NCBI RefSeq assembly: GCF_038404985.1
Contig: NZ_JBBKBA010000001.1
Span: forward strand, 124,001-188,000
Source of the DNA: Ferrovibrio sp. MS7
Lineage (GTDB): Bacteria > Pseudomonadota > Alphaproteobacteria > Ferrovibrionales > Ferrovibrionaceae
Reading direction: 5' to 3'
DNA length: 64,000 nt
The first letter of the stretch is position 1, and each line of letters begins with the position of its first letter. Below the pieces are notes generated by a model. The model was not told the DNA's origin, searched no databases, and saw only the letters and a program-made list of their open reading frames with translations. Shown in pieces: positions 8,151 through 25,790 of the stretch. A program made the translations under genes and the position numbers.

Positions 8151-8999
8151 TCAAGCCGTACTCATCGCCTGACCGCGCGAAGCCAGCTTGCGCCGGGAGG
8201 CGCCAAGCCGCTGGGAAATCCGCTCTGCCGTGGCCGCCACCACGGCGCCAAGCTGATCGAGCCTGGCGCGCGACACCATGGCTTGCGGCAACGCACCGCT
8301 GATCGCTGCCACGATGCGGCCATTGCTGTCGCGCACCGGCGCGCCGATGGAGTAGATGCCGATAATGTTTTCGCCTTCCGACAAGGTGTAGCCCTGCTTG
8401 CGCGCCTTGCGGATCTCGGCCACCAATGCGGCCACACTCAGCTTGGTCTTGGGCGTGCGGCGGATCAAATCACTGGCGCTCAGGATTGCCTTGATCTCGG
8501 CATCATTCATATCCAGCAGCAGGGCCTTGCCCAGTGCCGTGGTATGCAGCGGGATGCGGTCTCCAGGCGATACCTGGATCGCAATCGGGCCGCTGCTCTG
8601 CAAGGTGGCAAGATACAGCGCCTCGTTTTCGCGCAGGATGCCGAGATAGGAATTCAGCTTGTGGTCCCGCACCATCGGCTCCATCTCGGGCAGACTGACT
8701 TCGGCCAGGCTGCCGCCGCGCATGAAGCTGGAGCCGATCTCGAAAGCATGCGGCCCGATGCGGTATTTCCGCGTCACCGGCTCCTGCTCCACGAAATCGC
8801 GTTCGCTCAGGGTATTGAGCAAGCGCTGCACAATGCTCTTGGACAGGTCGAGTTCACGCGCCAAGTCGCGCACACCAATGGTGTCGTCGGCGGCGCCAAG
8901 CATTTCCAGGATGCGCAGGCCACGGTCCAGCGACTGGCTGCGGCTCTTGGCATCGCGGCCTTCAGTGTTCCGATTATCGGTACTTTGTCCCGATTTCAT
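8151..8999 (-). CDS. IclR family transcriptional regulator
   Basis: The 282-residue protein has an N-terminal winged helix-turn-helix (about residues 24-85, TIGVRDLARELDLSKSIVQRLLNTL) and a C-terminal IclR effector domain (about 100-265, containing HTTALGKALL and GYTLSEGENI). IclR proteins bind small aromatic or carboxylic effectors and act as homodimers or tetramers. The gene is the first of the minus-strand operon, about 48 bases before the tctC-like gene, which suggests it controls that operon and itself. A 21-base near-perfect palindrome at 9089-9109, 90 bases upstream of the start, is a plausible operator. Confidence 0.93.
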   Translation of the reverse strand: MKSGQSTDNRNTEGRDAKSRSQSLDRGLRILEMLGAADDTIGVRDLARELDLSKSIVQRLLNTLSERDFVEQEPVTRKYRIGPHAFEIGSSFMRGGSLAEVSLPEMEPMVRDHKLNSYLGILRENEALYLATLQSSGPIAIQVSPGDRIPLHTTALGKALLLDMNDAEIKAILSASDLIRRTPKTKLSVAALVAEIRKARKQGYTLSEGENIIGIYSIGAPVRDSNGRIVAAISGALPQAMVSRARLDQLGAVVAATAERISQRLGASRRKLASRGQAMSTA

Positions 9000-9088
9000 G
9001 CAGGCAGCATGACAAGCCGGCGGCGATCAAGTCAAGCCAGTTTCTGTGCATCTGCAATGCTGCCGTAAAAAGCAGCAAGTTTTCATCA

Positions 9089-9109
9089 CTGCGCAGATGA
9101 TCCGCGCAG
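9089..9109. promoter_or_regulatory. Candidate IclR operator palindrome
   Basis: A 21-base inverted repeat with outer arms CTGCGC and GCGCAG, inner arms GAT and ATC, and one mismatched pair. It sits between the IclR-type gene and the threonine-synthase-like gene, 90 bases upstream of the IclR start. Length and symmetry suit an IclR-type operator. It could instead form a hairpin ending the transcript from 10453-9170, but no T tract follows directly. Confidence 0.45.
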
Positions 9110-9169
9110 CTTCTCCGCATCAATGGTTGTTGTCAGTGCCGCCGGCTGACGCGACGCGCGCAATCCAGC

Positions 9170-10453
9170 TCACGCCATCAGGCGGCGGAGCAGCTCGTCG
9201 AGACCGTTTTCGTCAATATGAGGCACGCCATCGACAATGGCCGGCACATCCTTGAGGCCTGACGAGGTGAGAATCGCCACCACCGGCCCCTCGAAACGCT
9301 CGCCGCGCGCCGATGCCGCACGCAACGCAGCAAGCCCGGCGACGCCGGCGAGTTCCTGGTACAAGCCGGTATGGGCCAGGCTGGCGCGGATCGACACCAG
9401 ATCTTCATCGCTGCAGGTAAGGGCAACGCCGGCAGTGTCGCGGATCGCGCGCACGCCGCGATAACTGTTCACCGTGCAGGCAATACCACCGGCGATGGTC
9501 GGCACTGATGCCACTTCCACGGCAGCGGCATTGCTTTGCAGCGCACGCGCCAGCGGGCCGCGCGCAGCCGGCTCGGCCGAGATGATACGCGGCACGCGGT
9601 CGGTGAGGCCCAATTGCTGCAATTCGCGAAAACCCTTGGCCAGGCCGTAAAGCAACTCGCCATAGCCGGTCGGCACCACCACGCAACCCGGCAGCTTGCG
9701 CCCAAGCTGCAGAAAAAGTTCATAGGCCACGGTCTTGTAGCCTTCCGGACCGAAGGGATTGCCGGTGTGGAAACGCGTGAGATTACTGACCGGGAAATAG
9801 CCGGTTTCCGCGATAATCCGGCGCAGCACCGGCCAGCGCCGCTCGGTCGGCACCAGCACCAGTTCGGCACCATAGGCAGTGATGAACTGGCGGAAGGCCG
9901 ACTGCGCACCGGGGCTGGAAACGATCACGCAAGGCAGGCCCATGCGCGCGGCATAGGCGGCGGCGGCGGCGCCATGATTGCCGGAAGAAGCTGCCGCGAT
10001 GCCACGCGCCCCGCCGAGCTTGGCGGCACTCACGGTGCAGAGATTGAGGCGGTCCTTGTGGCTCCAGGTCGGGTTGCGGCTTTCATCTTTCAGCAGCAAT
10101 TCGCCATCGAAGCCGATGGCCGCCGCGATAGCCCCGCCATCGAGCAGCGGTGTGCCGCCTTCGCCCATGGAAATGCCCGGCGCCAGTGGCGGCAGCAACG
10201 GTGCCCAGCGGTCGAGACCGGGTAGCGGCGCTTGATCAAACAGCTTTAAATCAACTTTGGCGTAGTCGTAGTCGATCTCCAGCGGATACTGCATCTCTTC
10301 GCTGCTGCTCACCGGGCAGCCCTGCAGCAAAGCCGGTTGCAACGGGAAAAGCTGCGTCGGATCGCCAAGCGAGCGCTGACCGATAGCGAGCGATGAAGAA
10401 GGAGACTGCGCCATAACCTGTATATCCGCCTGCTTTAGGAAAGCCCGAAGCAT
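9170..10453 (-). CDS. Threonine synthase-like PLP-dependent enzyme
   Basis: This 427-residue protein belongs to fold type II PLP enzymes. It shows the PLP lysine motif NPTWSHKDR near residues 127-135, the phosphate-binding SSGNHGAAAAAYA loop near 154-166, and an N-terminal PLEIDYDY stretch seen in threonine synthases. Such enzymes form threonine from O-phosphohomoserine, but relatives degrade serine, threonine or diaminopropionate. ATG at 10453 has a GAGGG three bases upstream; ATG at 10414 (MAQSPSSS) is an alternative. It is isolated from hom and thrB here, so a catabolic or salvage role is possible. It may be co-transcribed with the upstream cupin gene (68-base gap). Confidence 0.8.
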   Translation of the reverse strand: MLRAFLKQADIQVMAQSPSSSLAIGQRSLGDPTQLFPLQPALLQGCPVSSSEEMQYPLEIDYDYAKVDLKLFDQAPLPGLDRWAPLLPPLAPGISMGEGGTPLLDGGAIAAAIGFDGELLLKDESRNPTWSHKDRLNLCTVSAAKLGGARGIAAASSGNHGAAAAAYAARMGLPCVIVSSPGAQSAFRQFITAYGAELVLVPTERRWPVLRRIIAETGYFPVSNLTRFHTGNPFGPEGYKTVAYELFLQLGRKLPGCVVVPTGYGELLYGLAKGFRELQQLGLTDRVPRIISAEPAARGPLARALQSNAAAVEVASVPTIAGGIACTVNSYRGVRAIRDTAGVALTCSDEDLVSIRASLAHTGLYQELAGVAGLAALRAASARGERFEGPVVAILTSSGLKDVPAIVDGVPHIDENGLDELLRRLMA

Positions 10454-18204: not shown

Positions 18205-19026
18205 TTATTGCGAGGCGGTGACGCCGCCATCGATATAGACGACCTGGCCGGTCATGTAGCTGCCGGCGGCGGCGGCGAAGGTGATCACCTGCCCCACCAC
18301 TTCCAGCGGATCGCCGATGCGGCCAAGCGGGTTGCGATCCAGGATGAAATTGCGGAAGGCCGGACGTTCGAGATGCGGCCGGATGCGATCCGACTGGATG
18401 AAGGTGGGCGCCACGCCATTGACGGTGATGTTATGCGGCGCCAGTTCCATGGCATGCTGCTTCACCAGCATCACCAAGGCGCCCTTGGTGGCGCAATAGG
18501 CCGAATAGCCGCGCCCGCGCAAGGCAAGCTGCGAGCGCACCGAGAGCAGATGAATTTGCCGCCCGCCCTGGCCACGCGCGATCTGGTCGCGCGCCACCGC
18601 CTGGCCGAGAAACATCGCCGAGCGCATATTGGTGGCATACATCTCATCGAACGTATCCGGCGTCACCTCCAGCAGGGCCTGCTCGCGCTGGATGCCAACA
18701 CAATTGACCAGTACATCAATGCCGCCCATCAGGGCGATGGACTCTGCGGTGGTATCGGCAATCGCCTGGCTGTCGCGGGCATCAAGATCCAGGGCATGAG
18801 CCCGTCCGCCCGCTGCATTGATGCGCGCGGCCAACGCCTCGGCCTTGGCGCCGCTCGGCCCGGCGATGCAGACCACGGCCCCCAGCCGCGCCATCGCCGT
18901 CGCGATAGCTTCGCCGATGGCGCCATAACCACCGGGCAGGAACACGCGCTGACCACGGATATCGAACAGCCGGTCGATGCGTTCGAGCTCAATCTCAGGT
19001 GTCAGGCTCGTGCTCTGGTGATTCAT
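18205..19026 (-). CDS. SDR family oxidoreductase
   Basis: A 273-residue classical short-chain dehydrogenase. The cofactor loop is GGYGAIGEAIATAM near residue 32 in place of the more usual TGGxxGIG, the structural NCVG motif follows, and the active site is the YSAYCATK pair of tyrosine and lysine, with serine supplied by LLSVRS. The protein ends DGGVTASQ, as in 3-oxoacyl-ACP reductase-like sugar dehydrogenases. I start at ATG 19026, which overlaps the stop of the cupin gene (ATGA); longer in-frame sequence lies antisense inside it. It probably oxidises a hydroxyl group ahead of the aldolase step. Confidence 0.9.
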   Translation of the reverse strand: MNHQSTSLTPEIELERIDRLFDIRGQRVFLPGGYGAIGEAIATAMARLGAVVCIAGPSGAKAEALAARINAAGGRAHALDLDARDSQAIADTTAESIALMGGIDVLVNCVGIQREQALLEVTPDTFDEMYATNMRSAMFLGQAVARDQIARGQGGRQIHLLSVRSQLALRGRGYSAYCATKGALVMLVKQHAMELAPHNITVNGVAPTFIQSDRIRPHLERPAFRNFILDRNPLGRIGDPLEVVGQVITFAAAAGSYMTGQVVYIDGGVTASQ

Positions 19027-19340
19027 GGCACGGCTCCGAAGCGGCCATAGCCGTAATGCCAGACACTGCCGGCATCCCTGGTGGTGCGCAGGCTGTGGCG
19101 CGCACCCGCCGGTATCCGCACCAGATCGCCGGGGCCACAAAGCTGACGCACCTGCCCGACCTCGATCTCGACGCGGCCTGCGGCAACAACGACGAATTCA
19201 TCCACATCGTCGTGGCGAAAGTCGTCCCAGACCTGGCCGGGCGGATCGGTATAGGTGGCGAAACTGAACCCGGGATGATCCGCGCGTATGCTGTCGGGCG
19301 AAACCGGCACGGCATAAGCGGCAGGCTGAAAAATCCTCAT
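19023..19340 (-). CDS. Small cupin domain protein
   Basis: The 105-residue protein is a single cupin. A histidine pair in FRHDDVDEFVVVAAGRVEI and a glycine- and proline-containing GPGDLVRIPAGARHSLRT turn mark the two conserved motifs. Such proteins bind a metal and act as sugar isomerases, lyases or stabilisers of reactive intermediates. The start ATG at 19340 overlaps the preceding ABC-type gene by four bases, and the stop overlaps the SDR start, so it is firmly within the operon. It is unrelated in detail to the cupin at 10522-10974. Catalytic role unknown. Confidence 0.82.
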   Translation of the reverse strand: MRIFQPAAYAVPVSPDSIRADHPGFSFATYTDPPGQVWDDFRHDDVDEFVVVAAGRVEIEVGQVRQLCGPGDLVRIPAGARHSLRTTRDAGSVWHYGYGRFGAVP

Positions 19341-19960
19341 GCCGCACGCTCCGTCAGCAGGCTGCCTAGATAGGCATGGGCCGGGGGATGCGCCAGCAGC
19401 GCCTGGTAATCGGCCAGCGGCGTGACACTGCCCTTCTGCACGAAAATGTAGCTCTCGCAGATTTCCCTCAGAATTTCGAGATGGAATGGTTCGTTGGGGT
19501 GGACGCAGAGAAATACCAGCCGGCCCTCGCTGCGCAGGCGGCGGAAGAAATCCAGCATGAAGCCGATATAGCCGTCCTGGGTGTTGAATTGCGGCTCATC
19601 GAACAGATGCACCATGGGATAATCGAACTCCGCCTTCTCGAGCAGGACATTCGGCATCAGCGAACGGAAATGCCGCACCTGGTAGGATTGGTGATAGTGG
19701 ATCGCCAGGCGGTCACGCTGGTCGGTGCGCACACGGTGGATATTGCGGCCCATTACCTGCACCTCGCCGGCGGTGGGGCTGTTGGACCCGGTGATGAGTT
19801 CGAACAACGTGGTCTTGCCCGAGCCGTTCGGCCCCATCATGCCGACCACCGAAGACTTATCGATGGTGAAATCGGCGGTGAGGCGGAAAGTTGGCGTGCG
19901 GTCGAACCGGCTTTTGCAGTAGACCTTTTCCAATCCCTGGACGTGCAGCATCGCCGGCAT
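19337..19960 (-). CDS. ABC ATPase-like protein lacking the signature motif
   Basis: A 207-residue protein with part of an ABC ATPase domain. Walker A is GPNGSGKTT at residues 43-51, a Q-loop-like HYHQSYQ lies at 88-94, Walker B with catalytic glutamate is MVHLFDE at 116-122, and an H-loop-like histidine is H154. Only about 27 residues separate Q-loop and Walker B, where about 75 are usual, and no LSGGQ-type signature is present. The helical subdomain is therefore largely missing without any frameshift. It lies three bases after the LivF-like gene and overlaps the next cupin gene, so it is a third ATPase-like protein of this transporter operon. It may regulate the transporter or act elsewhere. 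Confidence 0.75.
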   Translation of the reverse strand: MPAMLHVQGLEKVYCKSRFDRTPTFRLTADFTIDKSSVVGMMGPNGSGKTTLFELITGSNSPTAGEVQVMGRNIHRVRTDQRDRLAIHYHQSYQVRHFRSLMPNVLLEKAEFDYPMVHLFDEPQFNTQDGYIGFMLDFFRRLRSEGRLVFLCVHPNEPFHLEILREICESYIFVQKGSVTPLADYQALLAHPPAHAYLGSLLTERAA

Positions 19961-19963
19961 GGC

Positions 19964-20659
19964 TCAGACTCCGATCAGGCGGCAGCGCAGGGCCGGATTA
20001 TCGAGCAGTTCGCGCGCCGGCCCTTCATGCTCGATATGGCCACGGTCCATGACATAGACGCGATCAGCGACATCCAGGGCCGCCAGCGCATTCTGCTCGA
20101 CGATCAGCACCGAGATGCCTTCCTGCTTCAGGCGACGGATGGTACGCATCACGCCCTGCACGATATTCGGCGCCAGGCCCTGGCTCGGCTCGTCGAACAG
20201 CACCAGGCCGGGCGAGCCGAGCAAGGCACGGGAAATCGCCACCATCTGCAACTCGCCGCCCGACATGTTCTCGCATTCACGACGCATCAGATGCTCAAGG
20301 GCTGAAAAAATTCCGAACATCTCATCCTCGCACCAGGCCCGGAAGCGCGTGCGCCGGGTGCCAAGCCGCAGGTTGCGCGCCGCCGTCAGGGTCGGAAACA
20401 CGCGGCGATCATCCGGCACCCAGGAAATGCCCATGCGCGCAATGCGATGGGTCGGCAGCGCGGTGATGTCCTGCTCGTCGAAACGGATATGGCCCCGGCG
20501 CGGCGGCGACAGGCCGAGGATTGAGCGCAACGTCGTGGTCTTGCCAGCGCCATTCGGCCCCAGCAAGGCCACCACTTCGCCGCGCCCGATGCCTAGCGAG
20601 ACGCCAAACAAAGCCTGGGTTTCGCCGTAGAAGGTCTCGATGCCATTGAGTTCGAGCAT
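19964..20659 (-). CDS. Branched-chain amino acid-type ABC transporter ATP-binding protein (LivF family)
   Basis: This 231-residue ATPase has Walker A GPNGAGKTT near residue 35, the signature MSGGELQMVAISRAL, and Walker B LVLFDEPSQGLAPNIV typical of LivF. It powers the hydrophobic amino-acid transporter (HAAT) type complex together with the LivG-like ATPase. I start it at ATG 20659, which shares one base with the LivG-like stop (TGATG); upstream in-frame sequence lies inside that gene. Membrane-associated on the cytoplasmic face. The substrate of HAAT systems ranges from amino acids to urea, amides and aromatic acids. Confidence 0.93.
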   Translation of the reverse strand: MLELNGIETFYGETQALFGVSLGIGRGEVVALLGPNGAGKTTTLRSILGLSPPRRGHIRFDEQDITALPTHRIARMGISWVPDDRRVFPTLTAARNLRLGTRRTRFRAWCEDEMFGIFSALEHLMRRECENMSGGELQMVAISRALLGSPGLVLFDEPSQGLAPNIVQGVMRTIRRLKQEGISVLIVEQNALAALDVADRVYVMDRGHIEHEGPARELLDNPALRCRLIGV

Positions 20660-21405
20660 CACGCCACCTCGCCGAGCGCAGAGCGCGCCACCCATTTGTT
20701 GGCCCGCAATTCGGCCGGCGGGCCTTCTGCGATCACCTGGCCCCAATGCACCACGGAGATACGGTCGGCGAGATCGAACAGGAAGCGCATGTCATGCTCG
20801 ATCAGGCAGATGGTGTAGCGCTGGCGTAGCTTGCGGATCAGCGCCGCCAGTGTTCGCGTCGCCTCGGCGCCAAGCCCAGCCGTCGGCTCATCCAGAAACA
20901 GAACACGCGGCTCGGCGGCCAAAGCGACGGCGATTTCCAGCGCCCGGCGGTCGCCATAACTCATCGCCTTGGCCTTGTCCCAGGCGCGGCCGGCAAGGCC
21001 AACCTGATCCAGCACGGCCATGGCCGCATCGATCAGGCGGCGGTCGCCAAAGCTTTCGCGCAACGGGCTGGCGCTGATGGCGCGGAAGGCCGGCAAGGCC
21101 AGCATCACATTCTCGATCACCACGGTGTCGTCGAACAGGTTCATGATCTGGAACGAGCGCGACACGCCGAGCCGGGCGATGACATGCGGCTTGAGGCCGG
21201 TGATATCCATGCCGTCGAAGATGATCTGCCCGGCATCGGGCGCATGAAAGCCGGTGAGGACATGAAAGCAGGTGGTCTTGCCGGCACCGTTCGGGCCCAT
21301 GATGCCATGCACCGAACTGGCTTCGATCCCGAGCGTGATATTCTCCAGCACCACGCGGGCGCCGAAGCGTTTCTGGATCGCCTTCGCTTCGAATAACGGC
21401 ATCAC
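20659..21405 (-). CDS. Branched-chain amino acid-type ABC transporter ATP-binding protein (LivG family)
   Basis: The 248-residue ATPase shows Walker A GPNGAGKTT near residue 36, the LivG-type degenerate signature MSYGDRRALEIAVALA, and Walker B VLFLDEPTAGLGAEAT. The C-terminal extension after the H-loop (EHDMRFLFDLADRISVVHWG) is characteristic of LivG. It pairs with the LivF-like protein to drive the permeases encoded upstream. Its start overlaps the LivM-like stop by four bases. All motifs are intact, in contrast with the protein at 19337-19960. Confidence 0.94.
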   Translation of the reverse strand: MMPLFEAKAIQKRFGARVVLENITLGIEASSVHGIMGPNGAGKTTCFHVLTGFHAPDAGQIIFDGMDITGLKPHVIARLGVSRSFQIMNLFDDTVVIENVMLALPAFRAISASPLRESFGDRRLIDAAMAVLDQVGLAGRAWDKAKAMSYGDRRALEIAVALAAEPRVLFLDEPTAGLGAEATRTLAALIRKLRQRYTICLIEHDMRFLFDLADRISVVHWGQVIAEGPPAELRANKWVARSALGEVA

Positions 21406-22439
21406 GCCTGCTCCGGCTTGGTGGCGGCAATGACGGCTGGCCCTGCCACCTCAGCAGTGGCGCGGCGGCGCAGCAGGCAATCCAGCAAACCTGCAACACC
21501 TTCCGGACGCGTCATCACCATGACGACGAACATCAGGCCGTACCACAGCAGCCAGGCTTCGGTGATGCCGCCCAGCACATCGCGCGCCACGTAATAGAGA
21601 ATGACGCCAAGCACCGGCCCCCAGAAATTGACCAGGCCGCCGCCCACCAGCACCATCATCACGATCAGGCCGGATTGATGCAGGCTCATCACATCGGGAT
21701 AGGCACTCTGCTGTGCCATCGAGAACAGCCCGCCAGCCAGGCCGGCGAAACCGGCAGACAGTGTGAAGACCAGCCACTTCCAGCGCCAGACATCGTAGCC
21801 GATGAAGCGGGCGCGGGTTTCGTTCTGGCGGATGGCCTGCAGCACATGGCCGAAGGGGGCATTCACCAGGCGCCACATCATAATCACGGCGAGCGCGGTG
21901 ATCACGGCGACGAACCAGTAGAAATTCACATTGTCGTCGAGATCGACATGCCAGGGCCCCAGCACCAGATCGGGACGCGGAATATTGAGCAGACCATCCT
22001 CGCCACCGGTGATGCCGTGCAGTTTCATCGCCGAGAACCAGAAGACCTGACCGAAGGCGATGGTGAGCAATGCGTAGTAGATCCCGCGGCGATGCGAGAG
22101 GAAAAGCCCGACCACGGCGCCGGCAAAAGCCGCTGCCAGGACGGCGGCAAGCAAGCCGCCCCACAGGCTGACCGCGACATGGTGCTGGAAAAGGCCGAAG
22201 CCATAAGCGCCGATGCCGAGATAGGCGCCATGGCCGAAGGAATGCAGCCCGGTATAGCCGAACAGCAGGTTGAACCCCATGGCGAACAGGATCCAGATGG
22301 CGATCTCGACGCCGAGATACTGGTAGAGGCCGAGCGGCACCAGCCAGAACGGCGCCGTGGCCAGGCCGAGCAGGAACAAAGCCATCGGCAATGTGAACGG
22401 CGAGCCGCCGCGTGCAGGAATATCGGAAAGCGACAGCAT
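21402..22439 (-). CDS. Branched-chain amino acid-type ABC transporter permease (LivM family)
   Basis: The 345-residue protein has about nine membrane segments and the LivM marks GYTGLHSFGHGAYLGIGAYG near residue 64 and the cytoplasmic coupling loop RFIGYDVWRWKWLVFTLSAGFAGLAGGL. It forms half of the translocation pore with the LivH-like protein. I start it at ATG 22439 (MLSLSDIP), four bases after the LivH-like stop; an in-frame extension upstream overlaps that gene and lacks homology. Its C-terminus ends with a short hydrophilic tail rather than a fused ATPase. Confidence 0.92.
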   Translation of the reverse strand: MLSLSDIPARGGSPFTLPMALFLLGLATAPFWLVPLGLYQYLGVEIAIWILFAMGFNLLFGYTGLHSFGHGAYLGIGAYGFGLFQHHVAVSLWGGLLAAVLAAAFAGAVVGLFLSHRRGIYYALLTIAFGQVFWFSAMKLHGITGGEDGLLNIPRPDLVLGPWHVDLDDNVNFYWFVAVITALAVIMMWRLVNAPFGHVLQAIRQNETRARFIGYDVWRWKWLVFTLSAGFAGLAGGLFSMAQQSAYPDVMSLHQSGLIVMMVLVGGGLVNFWGPVLGVILYYVARDVLGGITEAWLLWYGLMFVVMVMTRPEGVAGLLDCLLRRRATAEVAGPAVIAATKPEQA

Positions 22440-22443
22440 CGGC

Positions 22444-23364
22444 TCAATTCTCCAGCGCGCTGCGCCGGCCGAACAGGCCACGGGCGCGGAAGCCGACAAT
22501 GGCGATCAGCAGCAGATACATCGACATCATCGACCAGGCCGGCGCATAAGCACCGGTAACGCCGACCGAGAGGCCGACCAGCAGTGCGGCGATCACCGCG
22601 CCCCAGAAACTGCCGACGCCGCCAATGACAATGATCAGGAAGGCCGGGATCACCACATCGATGCCGAGATGCGGCCGCAGGCCCCAGATCGGCGCCATCA
22701 CCATGCCGGCAATGCCGGCCAGCATCGCGCCGAAGCCGAACACGAACAGGCGCAACCGCGACAGATCATAGCCGAGCGCCCGCACCATCTCGCTGTCATG
22801 GGCACCAGCCTTGATGATGGCGCCATAGGGCGTGCGTTCGAGGAACAGCCAGACGGCGAGGATGGCAGCAATAGCGAAGCCGGCGGCGTAGAATTTGTAG
22901 GTGGAGAAGATCAAACCACCCATCAGGAAGGCGCCGGTGATCATCTGCGGCACCGGCAGGTTCTGCTCACCCGTGCCCCAGATCAGGCGGATCGCCTCTT
23001 CCACCACGATGGCGGCGCCGAAGGTGAGCAGCAGGCCATACAGCGGCGCCTTGCCATAAGTGGGGCGCAGGCAGAGTTCCAGCAGCATGCCGGCTATACC
23101 TGCCAGGGCCGGGCCGAAAGCCAGGGCCGAGAAATAGCGCGCCGCCTGCGGCAGCTCCAGCCACCAGGCCCCAAACGGCGTACCGGCGAACCAGCCGGCA
23201 CCGATGGTGGACAGGGCCAGGTAGGCGCCGAGCGTGAACAGCGAGCCATGGGCGAGATTGATCACTTCCATCACGCCGACAATCAGCGTGAAGCCCAGCG
23301 CGATCAGCGCGAAGAGCAGGCCAAGCGTGACGCCGTTGATGAGATGCGGAACAAAACTGGTCAT
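22444..23364 (-). CDS. Branched-chain amino acid-type ABC transporter permease (LivH family)
   Basis: This 306-residue permease begins MTSFVPHLINGVTLGLLFALIALGF and includes VGVMEVINLAHGSLFTLGAYL, the best conserved LivH segment, and GVGSFWGAVIAALLVG near the C-terminus. About eight membrane segments are present. ATG at 23364 is supported by the family N-terminus; longer in-frame sequence reaches back into the binding-protein gene and is not coding. It follows the binding-protein gene by 61 bases, a gap that may allow the extra binding protein usually needed. Confidence 0.92.
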   Translation of the reverse strand: MTSFVPHLINGVTLGLLFALIALGFTLIVGVMEVINLAHGSLFTLGAYLALSTIGAGWFAGTPFGAWWLELPQAARYFSALAFGPALAGIAGMLLELCLRPTYGKAPLYGLLLTFGAAIVVEEAIRLIWGTGEQNLPVPQMITGAFLMGGLIFSTYKFYAAGFAIAAILAVWLFLERTPYGAIIKAGAHDSEMVRALGYDLSRLRLFVFGFGAMLAGIAGMVMAPIWGLRPHLGIDVVIPAFLIIVIGGVGSFWGAVIAALLVGLSVGVTGAYAPAWSMMSMYLLLIAIVGFRARGLFGRRSALEN

Positions 23365-23425
23365 GAAGGGGATTGCTTCTGCGATGAGCGGCGGCCGGCC
23401 TGGACCGGCCGCCGGCTGAACAGCT

Positions 23426-24715
23426 TCAGGCGTCGAAGGTCGGCGTCGCCTCGTAGGATTCCAGCTTGCAGGCCCCTGCCGCATCGCTATCCATCGCCTC
23501 CTGCGGCGAGGTACTGGCGATGATCTTGAACATGTCGTCCTTGTCCTTGGTGCCGATATTCGCCGTCGCCTGGTAGATCGTCTGCTGCACCTGGTGCGTC
23601 ACCGGATCGATCCAGGCATCATGGTGCTGCATGCGGTCGCGGGCCGACATCTTGTGACCCTCCAGCGCCTTGATCACCTTGATGTTGTTGGTGGAGCCGG
23701 CGCGCTCGATAGCGGCGAACAATTCGCGCGTCGCCCAGTAGCCGTTGTAGAACACGTTGCCCGGCACGCGCATCGCGGTATCCGGGAACATGGCCTGATA
23801 GCGCTTGACGAATTCAGCTACGCCCGGCAGGTCGAGATTGTAGTACCAGGTGGTGCCGAACATGCCGAACAGGTTGTCCAGCGGCAGGCCATAGACATCC
23901 GGCCAATCCTGCTGGTTGTTCAGCCAGACCGGCTTGTTGCCCATGCCAAGCTGGGCGATCTGCTGGCGCATCGCCTTCTGGTCATCGCCGCCGATGGCCG
24001 CCGCGACCACGCCGGGATTGATCTGCTGGATCTTGAGCAGTTGCGAGGAGAAATCGCGCGTGCCCTGCGGCACCAGGATTTCCTCGACCATCTGGCCGCC
24101 ATATTCCTTAAGCAGTGCCTTGGTGGCCGCCGCTGTGCTGTGGCCCCAGACATAATCGTTTGTCAGCAGCACCCATTTCTTGCCGAATTTCTCGATCGCC
24201 GCCTTCACCGAGGCTTTGGCGAAATTGGTGCCGTTGGCATCCCACACGAACTTGGTGCGGTGGCAATTGGCGCCTGCTTCGGAAGGCGCGCTGGAATTGG
24301 TGTTGAGGTAGATGACGCCGTATTTCTGCGCCACCTGGCTGATCGCATTAGCGACGCCGGAATGGATCGCGCCGATCAGGAAGCCGCAATTCTCGCGCGT
24401 GATCATGCGCTCGGCGACGCGGCTGCCGGTGGCCGGTGTGGTCTCGGTATCGAGATGCACGAATTCGATCTTGCGGCCGAGCACGCCGCCGCGCGCATTG
24501 GCCTCGGCGATGGCCATCTGCATGCCGCGGCGGTCGCTGGCACCGGAATTGGCGTATTGGCCGGTGGCATCCGAGGTGATGCCGATCCGGATTGGCTTGG
24601 CCGCACCCTGGGCATAGACCCGGGTGTAACGCCAAGGGCCGGCAAAAGCGGCAACGCCGCCGGCAGCGGCAACGCCGGTCAGCAGACGGCGGCGGGAAAC
24701 CTGCAATCGAGACAT
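23426..24715 (-). CDS. HAAT-family ABC transporter substrate-binding protein (urea/amide-type)
   Basis: The 429-residue protein opens with a twin-arginine-like signal (SRRRLLTGVAAAGGVAAFAG), so export by Tat is likely. The mature part is a type I periplasmic binding fold of the Leu/Ile/Val-amide-urea family: PIRIGITSDATGQYANSGASDRRGMQMAI, an ITRENCGFLIGAIHSGVANAI segment, and QHHDAWIDPVTHQVQQTIY near the end. It captures the transported compound and hands it to the LivH/LivM-like pore. ATG at 24715 follows a GGAGG-like stretch. It is the first gene of the operon and faces the RpiR-type regulator across a 193-base AT-rich region. Confidence 0.92.
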   Translation of the reverse strand: MSRLQVSRRRLLTGVAAAGGVAAFAGPWRYTRVYAQGAAKPIRIGITSDATGQYANSGASDRRGMQMAIAEANARGGVLGRKIEFVHLDTETTPATGSRVAERMITRENCGFLIGAIHSGVANAISQVAQKYGVIYLNTNSSAPSEAGANCHRTKFVWDANGTNFAKASVKAAIEKFGKKWVLLTNDYVWGHSTAAATKALLKEYGGQMVEEILVPQGTRDFSSQLLKIQQINPGVVAAAIGGDDQKAMRQQIAQLGMGNKPVWLNNQQDWPDVYGLPLDNLFGMFGTTWYYNLDLPGVAEFVKRYQAMFPDTAMRVPGNVFYNGYWATRELFAAIERAGSTNNIKVIKALEGHKMSARDRMQHHDAWIDPVTHQVQQTIYQATANIGTKDKDDMFKIIASTSPQEAMDSDAAGACKLESYEATPTFDA

Positions 24716-24797
24716 CCATTCCTCCCTTGATTGGCACCTGCCATGGCTCGGCTGGGTGCGCTCGTCCGGCGCTTCTTGCGATGCGTGTGAACGCCGT

Positions 24798-24862
24798 TTC
24801 AATCAAGTTGAATGAATATTCCCAAACTGTCAAAGAATATTTTTTCAATGCAATTGAATATT
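24798..24862. promoter_or_regulatory. Three GAATATT repeats at exact 21-bp spacing (candidate RpiR operator array)
   Basis: GAATATT occurs at 24814-24820, 24835-24841 and 24856-24862, each exactly 21 bases apart, equal to two helical turns. The first copy extends to the palindrome GAATATTC, the third to TGAATATTTCA, an inverted repeat of TGAA and TTCA around three bases. A further inverted repeat TTCAA-N5-TTGAA spans 24798-24812. The array lies in the divergent promoter region between the binding-protein gene and the RpiR-type regulator, so it is a likely operator for that regulator. Confidence 0.5.
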
Positions 24863-24908
24863 TCATCTATGATTGAGCTTACAGGCTAAACTGTTGTAAA
24901 GATTGGCT

Positions 24909-25790
24909 ATGAAGAATGCTGCCGTGCCGAATCCAGGCCCCGTCACCGCCGAGGCGGCGGCGTTGAACCCGAATCCCGAGACCTTCGAGGCCCTGCGCCA
25001 GCGGCTCCGCGACCGTTTCACCAGCCTCAGCCCGCATCTGCAGCGCATCGCCCGCGCCGCGCTTGAAGAGCCGAACGGCTTCGCGCTCAACACCACCTCG
25101 AAAATCGCCGGCGAACTGGATATCCAGCCTTCGACGCTGATCCGCTTCGCCAAGGAATTCGGCTATGCCGGCTTCTCCGATCTGCAGCGGGTCTTCCGCC
25201 AGCGCCTGATCGAGGGCGAGGCCGTGGTGCGCGAGCGGGTCTATTCCGAGGCCAGCGCCCTGCAGGCGCCGCCGGATGTAAAGGATCTGCTGCAATCCTG
25301 CGTGCAGGCGCATATCAACTCGCTGCAGGAATTGCTGCGCCATTGCGATACCGACAGCCTGGCCCGCGCGGTGGAAGTGCTGCGCGCCGCGCGCCATGTC
25401 TATGTTGCCGGCCTGCGCCGCTCGCGGCCAATCGCCAGCTATCTCGCTTATGCGCTGATGCGGTCGGAGCGCCCATGCAGCCTGCTCGATTTCGCCGGCG
25501 GCATGGCGGGCGCGCAGATCGCCACCATCGGCCCGGATGATCTGCTGGTCGCCATCGCCTTCGCGCCGCATTCGCAGCCCGTGGTCGATGCCGTGCAGGA
25601 TGCCTATGTCTCCGGCCGCAAGGTGCTGGTGATCACCGATGGGCCGAGCAGCCCGCTCGCCTCGCATGCCCATACGCGGCTCTATATCGATGCTGGTGCT
25701 GCCTCGCCGTTTCAGCCGATTTCCGGCGCCATCGGCCTGGTGCAGACCCTGGTGACCGCGCTCACCATCGACTCCGTCACCGGCGAGTGA
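24909..25790 (+). CDS. MurR/RpiR family transcriptional regulator
   Basis: The 293-residue protein has an N-terminal HTH_6 domain at about residues 20-95 (LSPHLQRIARAALEEPNGFALNTTSKIAGELDIQPSTLIRFAKEFGYAGFSDLQR) and a C-terminal SIS domain at about 130-265 (ARHVYVAGLRRSRPIASYLAY and VLVITDGPSSPLA). SIS domains bind phosphosugars or related acids. ATG at 24909 is preceded in frame by TTG at 24903, two codons earlier; either may be used. It is divergent from the branched-chain-type transporter operon and probably controls it. Confidence 0.92.
   Translation: MKNAAVPNPGPVTAEAAALNPNPETFEALRQRLRDRFTSLSPHLQRIARAALEEPNGFALNTTSKIAGELDIQPSTLIRFAKEFGYAGFSDLQRVFRQRLIEGEAVVRERVYSEASALQAPPDVKDLLQSCVQAHINSLQELLRHCDTDSLARAVEVLRAARHVYVAGLRRSRPIASYLAYALMRSERPCSLLDFAGGMAGAQIATIGPDDLLVAIAFAPHSQPVVDAVQDAYVSGRKVLVITDGPSSPLASHAHTRLYIDAGAASPFQPISGAIGLVQTLVTALTIDSVTGE

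Follow-up and report, generated by a model that had tools for sequence, protein, structure and literature searches.

The transporter operon and its sixth gene

The window, by which we mean the whole 64,000-nucleotide stretch of Ferrovibrio sp. MS7 DNA that was analyzed, carries an operon in which genes for a periplasmic binding protein (SBP), two permeases and two ATPases are followed by a gene for a signature-less ABC ATPase-like protein, named dABC here (Table 1). With a Peripla_BP_6-type SBP, two BPD_transp_2 permeases and LivF- and LivG-type ATPases, the operon has the composition of a Liv/HAAT importer; no NCBIfam match above cut-off was shown for any of the five transporter proteins. Downstream of dABC lie genes for a cupin, a short-chain dehydrogenase (SDR), an aldehyde dehydrogenase (ALDH) and an HpaI-type aldolase. 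The original prediction had described the genes as overlapping, which holds for dABC and the cupin gene (4 bases) but not for LivF and dABC, which are separated by 3 bases. Should LivF begin at the MLELNG methionine, its gene would share 1 base with LivG.

Table 1. Features of the dABC locus, with positions in the window.
Feature	Position	Strand	Basis or remark
dABC, signature-less ABC ATPase-like protein	19337..19960	-	ORF, 207 aa, ATG start
dABC Walker A GPNGSGKTT, residues 43-51	19808..19834	-	invariant residues, 68 members
dABC family motif RDRLAIHYHQSYQVR around the Q-loop, residues 82-96	19673..19717	-	68-member alignment
dABC Walker B, catalytic Glu122, altered D-loop and next helix, residues 117-139	19544..19612	-	D-loop assigned by eye
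dABC H-loop-like His154, within C-x-H-P	19499..19501	-	invariant, 68 members
LivF-type ATPase, signature MSGGE	19964..20659	-	likely start, inferred, at Met of MLELNG (residue 30); listed ORF 19964-20746
LivG-type ATPase, signature MSYGD	20659..21405	-	profile matches and locus comparison
LivM-type permease (BPD_transp_2)	21402..22499	-	profile matches
LivH-type permease (BPD_transp_2)	22444..23484	-	true start probably inside the ORF
Periplasmic binding protein (Peripla_BP_6)	23426..24802	-	profile matches
RpiR/MurR-type regulator, divergent	24903..25790	+	type from models matched by the homologue L050, none above cut-off
Cupin	19023..19340	-	>45% identity in 21/87 loci
Short-chain dehydrogenase (SDR)	18205..19140	-	start likely inside the ORF; commonest downstream neighbour, >45% identity in 70/87 loci

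Walker A, Walker B with its glutamate (MVHLFDE, residues 116-122) and His154 are found in dABC exactly at the positions at which they had been predicted. Both the Walker A and Walker B/catalytic glutamate elements of a PF00005 nucleotide-binding domain (NBD) are thus present (K49, T50, D121 and E122, all invariant in the family), as are the Q-loop glutamine and the H-loop histidine (Q91 and H154, likewise invariant, both assigned by eye). Q91 lies within HYHQSYQVR, by eye some 25 residues ahead of Walker B (about 27 residues had been noted earlier), and a D-loop-like segment, also recognized by eye, ends at D129. The Pfam ABC_tran profile (PF00005) matches dABC residues 30-91 alone, corresponding to profile positions 5-67 of 137, so that the match stops at the Q-loop. 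Among the PF00005 domains of the same genome (237 candidates, of which 150 were scored, dABC lying outside the 150), all 150 reach profile position 135-137. The dABC gene is present in a single copy in this genome, the remaining matches being longer ABC proteins, mostly matched via their N-terminal half. No specific Pfam or NCBIfam model for dABC turned up.

Conservation and predicted fold of dABC

Relatives were sought in a collection of genomes of 84,980 species with an alignment of 13 dABC members. The scan yielded 191 relatives, and the best 80 of these 191 come, by their record titles, from Alpha-, Beta- and Gammaproteobacteria as well as some Deltaproteobacteria, Myxococcales, Desulfosarcina and Binatia. 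Comparisons of loci refer to 87 loci including the window (L033, L042, L062 and L074 duplicate L020, L021, L024 and L025 and were removed, the apparent near-copies L077 and L078 were both kept, and L029-L032, with short flanks, were excluded from the neighbourhood count), while residue conservation refers to an alignment of 68 members made of proteins from 67 of the 80 loci and the window protein. At E<=1e-20, dABC was matched in 5/18 genomes of the order, the Ferrovibrio genome counted, and its distribution is patchy even within the genus (4/10 genomes). In the class and phylum samples, whose searches score few candidates per genome, 9/385 and 5/398 genomes were matched, respectively; the two samples overlap, share the Ferrovibrio genome and are not independent, and jointly contain 13 distinct dABC genomes. 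A plasmid or viral origin of the gene was considered and rejected, as there was no plasmid match at E<=1e-15 and no relative in viral contigs.

The distance between the Walker A lysine and the Walker B aspartate is 72 residues in dABC of all 87 loci, compared to 116 residues in the LivF (83 proteins) and 129 residues in the LivG (82 proteins) encoded at these loci. The LSGGQ signature was not found in its usual place in any dABC of the 87 loci, nor was a helical subdomain found between the Q-loop and Walker B, as judged by the Lys-Asp spacing and by an AlphaFold2 model, in line with the original prediction that both elements are missing. A loose signature pattern is present in 83/83 LivF and 81/82 LivG proteins and, between Walker A and Walker B, in 2/87 dABC proteins, in which (L026 and L102) the match is, by the listing, an [IM]TGGN segment right behind Walker A. 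We also considered that a signature may be hidden elsewhere in the protein and rejected this: an [ST][GY]G pattern is found in 8/87 members, none in the usual place, seven of the matches being NxPTGG or TGGN segments behind Walker A and the remaining one (L098) being located just ahead of the strand preceding the H-loop.

K49, T50, Q91, D121, E122, D129, H154 and P155 are invariant in the 68 aligned members, as are, within Walker A, G43, N45, G46, G48 and T51 in addition to K49 and T50. In the motif RDRLAIHYHQSYQVR, R82, H88-Q94 and R96 are invariant and D83-I87 and V95 are conserved in at least 90% of members. Residues 118-139 are mostly invariant. In place of the helical subdomain there is a variable linker (residues 100-116) with a mean top-residue frequency of 0.60, compared to 0.94 and 0.97 for the segments flanking it, the latter value being that of residues 117-139. 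The length of dABC is 201-220 aa in the 84 loci in which its start was placed. Relative to three congeners, the dN/dS ratio is 0.12-0.19 (dN 0.12-0.15, dS 0.79-1.03). Since the catalytic residues are invariant, selection seems to maintain a functional ATP site.

Homologues with a full signature region would have implied a deletion here and refuted the original prediction, and none were found among dABC members of the 87 loci. The idea that the short protein results from a local deletion, a pseudogene or a sequencing error can be dismissed with near certainty, because the same spacing is found in 87/87 loci from many genera and the gene is under purifying selection.

AlphaFold2, supplied with the 68-member alignment, predicted an ABC core for the dABC monomer with a mean pLDDT of 90.6 and a pTM of 0.87. 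No helix of four or more residues is present in the model between the strands formed by residues 86-89 and 117-121. The best solved match of the model is MetN (6cvl_D; Z 19.4, rmsd 2.5 over 175 residues), with many other ABC ATPases within 1 Z unit of it. PDB profile search and Foldseek retrieved, among the matches listed, only ABC proteins of a general kind, and no structure lacking the helical subdomain was noticed among them, which does not speak against the existence of one. The model confidently predicts an ABC core fold minus the helical subdomain.

Association of dABC with one importer clade

The usual gene order is SBP-LivH-LivM-LivG-LivF-dABC, with dABC closing the transporter operon; in a variant order, found mostly in Burkholderiales, the SBP and LivH genes lie upstream of LivM-LivG-LivF-dABC and are encoded by the other strand. 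The next gene upstream of dABC is LivF (>50% identity) in 86/87 loci; in the sole exception, L060, the dABC match begins at base 38 of the contig, i.e., at a contig end. The distance from the LivF stop codon to the dABC start, determined for the 84 of these 86 loci in which the dABC start was placed (two were without), is between -11 and +27 bases in 83 of them and 465 bases in L106. Fusion of the two genes was considered and rejected, as the long upstream frames seen in some loci are run-on frames and not LivF. At >45% identity, LivG was detected in 83/87, LivM in 81/87, LivH in 79/87 and SBP in 76/87 loci, several of the misses being due to short contigs. In L081 (Photobacterium sp. JCM 19050, positions 8550-9983), a draft contig, the matches to LivG and to LivF are both split in two, through sequencing errors or through decay, while dABC is open.

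A LivH query at E<=1e-60 retrieved exactly those genomes that contain dABC, 9/385 in the class sample and 5/398 in the phylum sample, the Ferrovibrio genome being present in both. The threshold is not critical, because all LivH matches have E values of 2.1e-110 or better. G138 and G143, which are among the nine class genomes, have dABC and LivH on different contigs, and for these two the presence of both genes is all that is shown. In the 76 loci with all six genes, dABC has diverged about as much as the other subunits, with a mean pairwise identity of 0.665 compared to 0.628-0.690. The distances between dABC proteins correlate with those between LivF proteins with a Mantel r of 0.64 (0/999 permutations gave a value as high), with those of LivG at 0.68 and with those of LivH at 0.66; LivM behaves alike. 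These values do not single out the evolutionary partner of dABC: LivF, LivG, LivM and LivH score alike, LivF is not favoured over LivG or LivH, and correlations of this kind would also come from shared inheritance alone.

Gene order and co-occurrence bear out the proposal that dABC belongs to this transporter: it is well supported as a dedicated sixth component of one Liv-type (HAAT-like) importer clade. No sampled genome with this importer lacks dABC, which is therefore probably a genuine, so far undescribed, working or regulatory part of it.

The genes around the operon bear on the substrate. Clusters of neighbouring genes include an RpiR-type regulator (61 of the 87 loci, mostly divergent), SDR (66), Gfo/Idh-type (30), IolC-type (22), L-arabinonate dehydratase-type (22) and IolB-type (5) proteins, and relatives of the window ALDH and HpaI proteins were found at >45% identity in 27/87 and 16/87 loci, respectively. 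When one representative of each of six clusters was scanned against NCBIfam, cut-offs were passed by the representatives matching bifunctional IolC (803.9 vs. 600), IolB (349.1 vs. 205) and L-arabinonate dehydratase (1025.8 vs. 882), and no cut-off was passed by the regulator and Gfo/Idh-type representatives. In L073, L075, L091, L111 and other loci, the importer has iolC- or iolB-type genes of inositol catabolism in its vicinity, which suggests a Liv-type inositol or polyol importer there. In L034, L046 and other alphaproteobacterial loci, genes for an L-arabinonate dehydratase-type protein, an aldehyde dehydrogenase and an HpaI-type aldolase are found downstream, suggesting an oxidative sugar-acid route; no L-arabinonate dehydratase-type gene is found next to the SDR, dehydrogenase and aldolase genes of the window. 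Given such catabolic neighbours, we consider a sugar, a polyol or a sugar acid a more likely substrate than a branched-chain amino acid. By default, the dABC importer would pass for a branched-chain amino acid system, and the neighbouring genes indicate its likely substrate class.

Compared to the Liv/HAAT (LivKHMGF) and urea (UrtABCDE) importers, the operon has the same SBP, two permeases and two ATPases; it differs from both in having a sixth conserved gene and, in part of the loci, neighbours that suggest a sugar or polyol rather than amino acids (Liv/HAAT) or urea (UrtABCDE). dABC itself resembles the NBDs of ABC transporters (PF00005; LivG/LptB-like) in its Walker A, Q-loop, Walker B glutamate, H-loop and modelled core fold and differs from them in having neither a helical subdomain nor LSGGQ and in forming a clade on a long stem.

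A possible role of dABC in the transport cycle

ABC motors are understood to work in pairs, either half lending its signature to the other. Lacking a signature, dABC would need another protein for hydrolysis in the ABC manner, and lacking a helical subdomain, it should be unable to make the usual coupling to a permease or to complete the site of a partner. The nucleotide-side motifs are invariant, so dABC should bind ATP and may hydrolyse it as well. LivF and LivG, encoded next to it, are intact, as had been predicted: Walker A, signature, Walker B and H-loop are kept with few departures, and the signature serine of LivG is replaced by Pro or Ala in at least 24/83 loci.

LivF has 15 clade-specific positions relative to 27 paralogs from the same genome, and six of them are at the Q-loop, the signature flank and the D-loop. 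In the Q-loop WVPDDRR (residues 109-113 of the listed ORF), W109, D112 and D113 are each present in 83/83 covered loci; at position 112, paralogs have E in 23/27 and Q in 4/27 cases. E159 (86/86) and V169 (85/86) are located at the signature flank, and Q189 (86/86) in the D-loop. LivG has 11 clade-specific positions relative to 24 paralogs, none of them at the Q-loop, signature flank or D-loop; they include M36 next to Walker A, F170 within Walker B, and F208 and L209 behind the H-loop. This hints that the ATP-sandwich face of LivF is specialized, the count having been made after the fact and without a control clade; the LivF changes may also be mere marks of the clade or reflect a fit to its own permease. 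Its own changes near catalytic motifs, together with the replacement of the signature serine in part of the loci, mean that LivG, too, could be the partner of dABC.

In a tree of 92 rows, the operon dABC, LivF and LivG proteins (15 rows each) form one clade each, with support values of 100/100, 100/99 and 100/100, respectively. The dABC clade branches with a long stem among LivG-type proteins, with weak support (85/72). Five paralog rows of the tree have very long branches and are probably mistranslated, and 4/27 LivF paralogs, for which there was no stop-free reading, were left out; one gene (L140, the same as L163) is present in both the LivF and LivG paralog sets of the tree and of the clade-position comparison.

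The reading that we favour, to which we assign a probability of about 40%, is that ATP-loaded dABC is an ATP-driven gate or timer that docks on the LivF signature and serves as a dedicated sixth component of a probable sugar, polyol or sugar-acid importer. LivF and LivG would form a normal motor beneath LivH and LivM, and dABC would keep one half of an ATP sandwich. In the open transporter, ATP-loaded dABC would dock on the free signature face of LivF (alternatively, of LivG). The docked pair would contain one complete site, made of dABC Walker A, Walker B and H-loop and the LivF signature, and one dead site. Docked dABC would block the closure of LivF on LivG until hydrolysis frees it. The data back the family, its conserved loss, the kept nucleotide-side motifs, the strict link to the importer and the predicted fold; ATP binding and hydrolysis, docking on LivF and gating of the importer are what we infer from them. 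The invariant catalytic residues and the changes in LivF sandwich motifs are compatible with regulatory or asymmetric pairing, though they are no proof of it. The motif RDRLAIHYHQSYQVR has no role in the docking model and may bind something else.

A different possibility, one that we regard as rather unlikely, is that dABC acts as its own homodimer or as a monomeric ATP switch, which senses a metabolite or the ATP level, controls the transporter in the style of trans-inhibition and uses no LivF or LivG signature. The additional invariant motif at the Q-loop might provide a new site, the dABC fold is self-contained and confidently predicted, and the gene adjoins LivF in 86/87 loci; however, a canonical ABC sandwich homodimer is impossible without a signature, and dABC has no attached sensor domain.

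Less probable still is an enzymatic role in the catabolic pathway instead of a part in transport, with dABC serving, for instance, as an ATP-dependent kinase whose substrate is the imported compound. The transporter does sit with catabolic genes, the ATP site of dABC is conserved and the P-loop fold can host other chemistries, but dABC follows LivF in 86/87 loci while the surrounding enzymes (SDR, ALDH, HpaI, IolC, dehydratase) vary. We give less credit again to a second motor form in which dABC takes the place of LivG or LivF, so that the importer would have a single catalytic site. Heterodimeric ABC motors of which one site is dead are known, and dABC has the anatomy of a half-site, yet without a helical subdomain it could not make the usual contact with the permease coupling helix, and neither LivF nor LivG is missing or has lost its motifs.

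A bolder version of the docking model, in which the signature-less third ATPase is an obligatory moving part that borrows the LivF signature, times LivF-LivG closure and so defines a new class of ABC importers, appears doubtful to us. A three-ATPase cycle is, to our knowledge, known for no ABC transporter. The fold of dABC is a known one, that of the ABC NBD, and there is a real chance that its working principle is new. A widespread family of half-sites encoded beside two complete motors offers a test of how far the signature-sharing rule bends.

The signature motifs are retained in PhnK and PhnL, which are part of an enzyme complex, not of Liv permeases. The open-licence PMC literature, a scope outside which most subscription papers fall, yielded no description of dABC, and there is none in the available portions of PMC5789663 and PMC8079746. 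According to the available portion of PMC9947105, PhnK/PhnL are the dual ABC ATPase of C-P lyase and thus resemble the dABC operon in that more than one kind of ABC protein is present in one complex. MlaB bound to MlaF, in the accessible part of PMC7367683, is a regulatory subunit of an ABC ATPase; like dABC, it is a small extra cytoplasmic protein, one that regulates an ABC motor. MlaB is a STAS protein, whereas dABC is itself ABC-like and has kept its ATP site.
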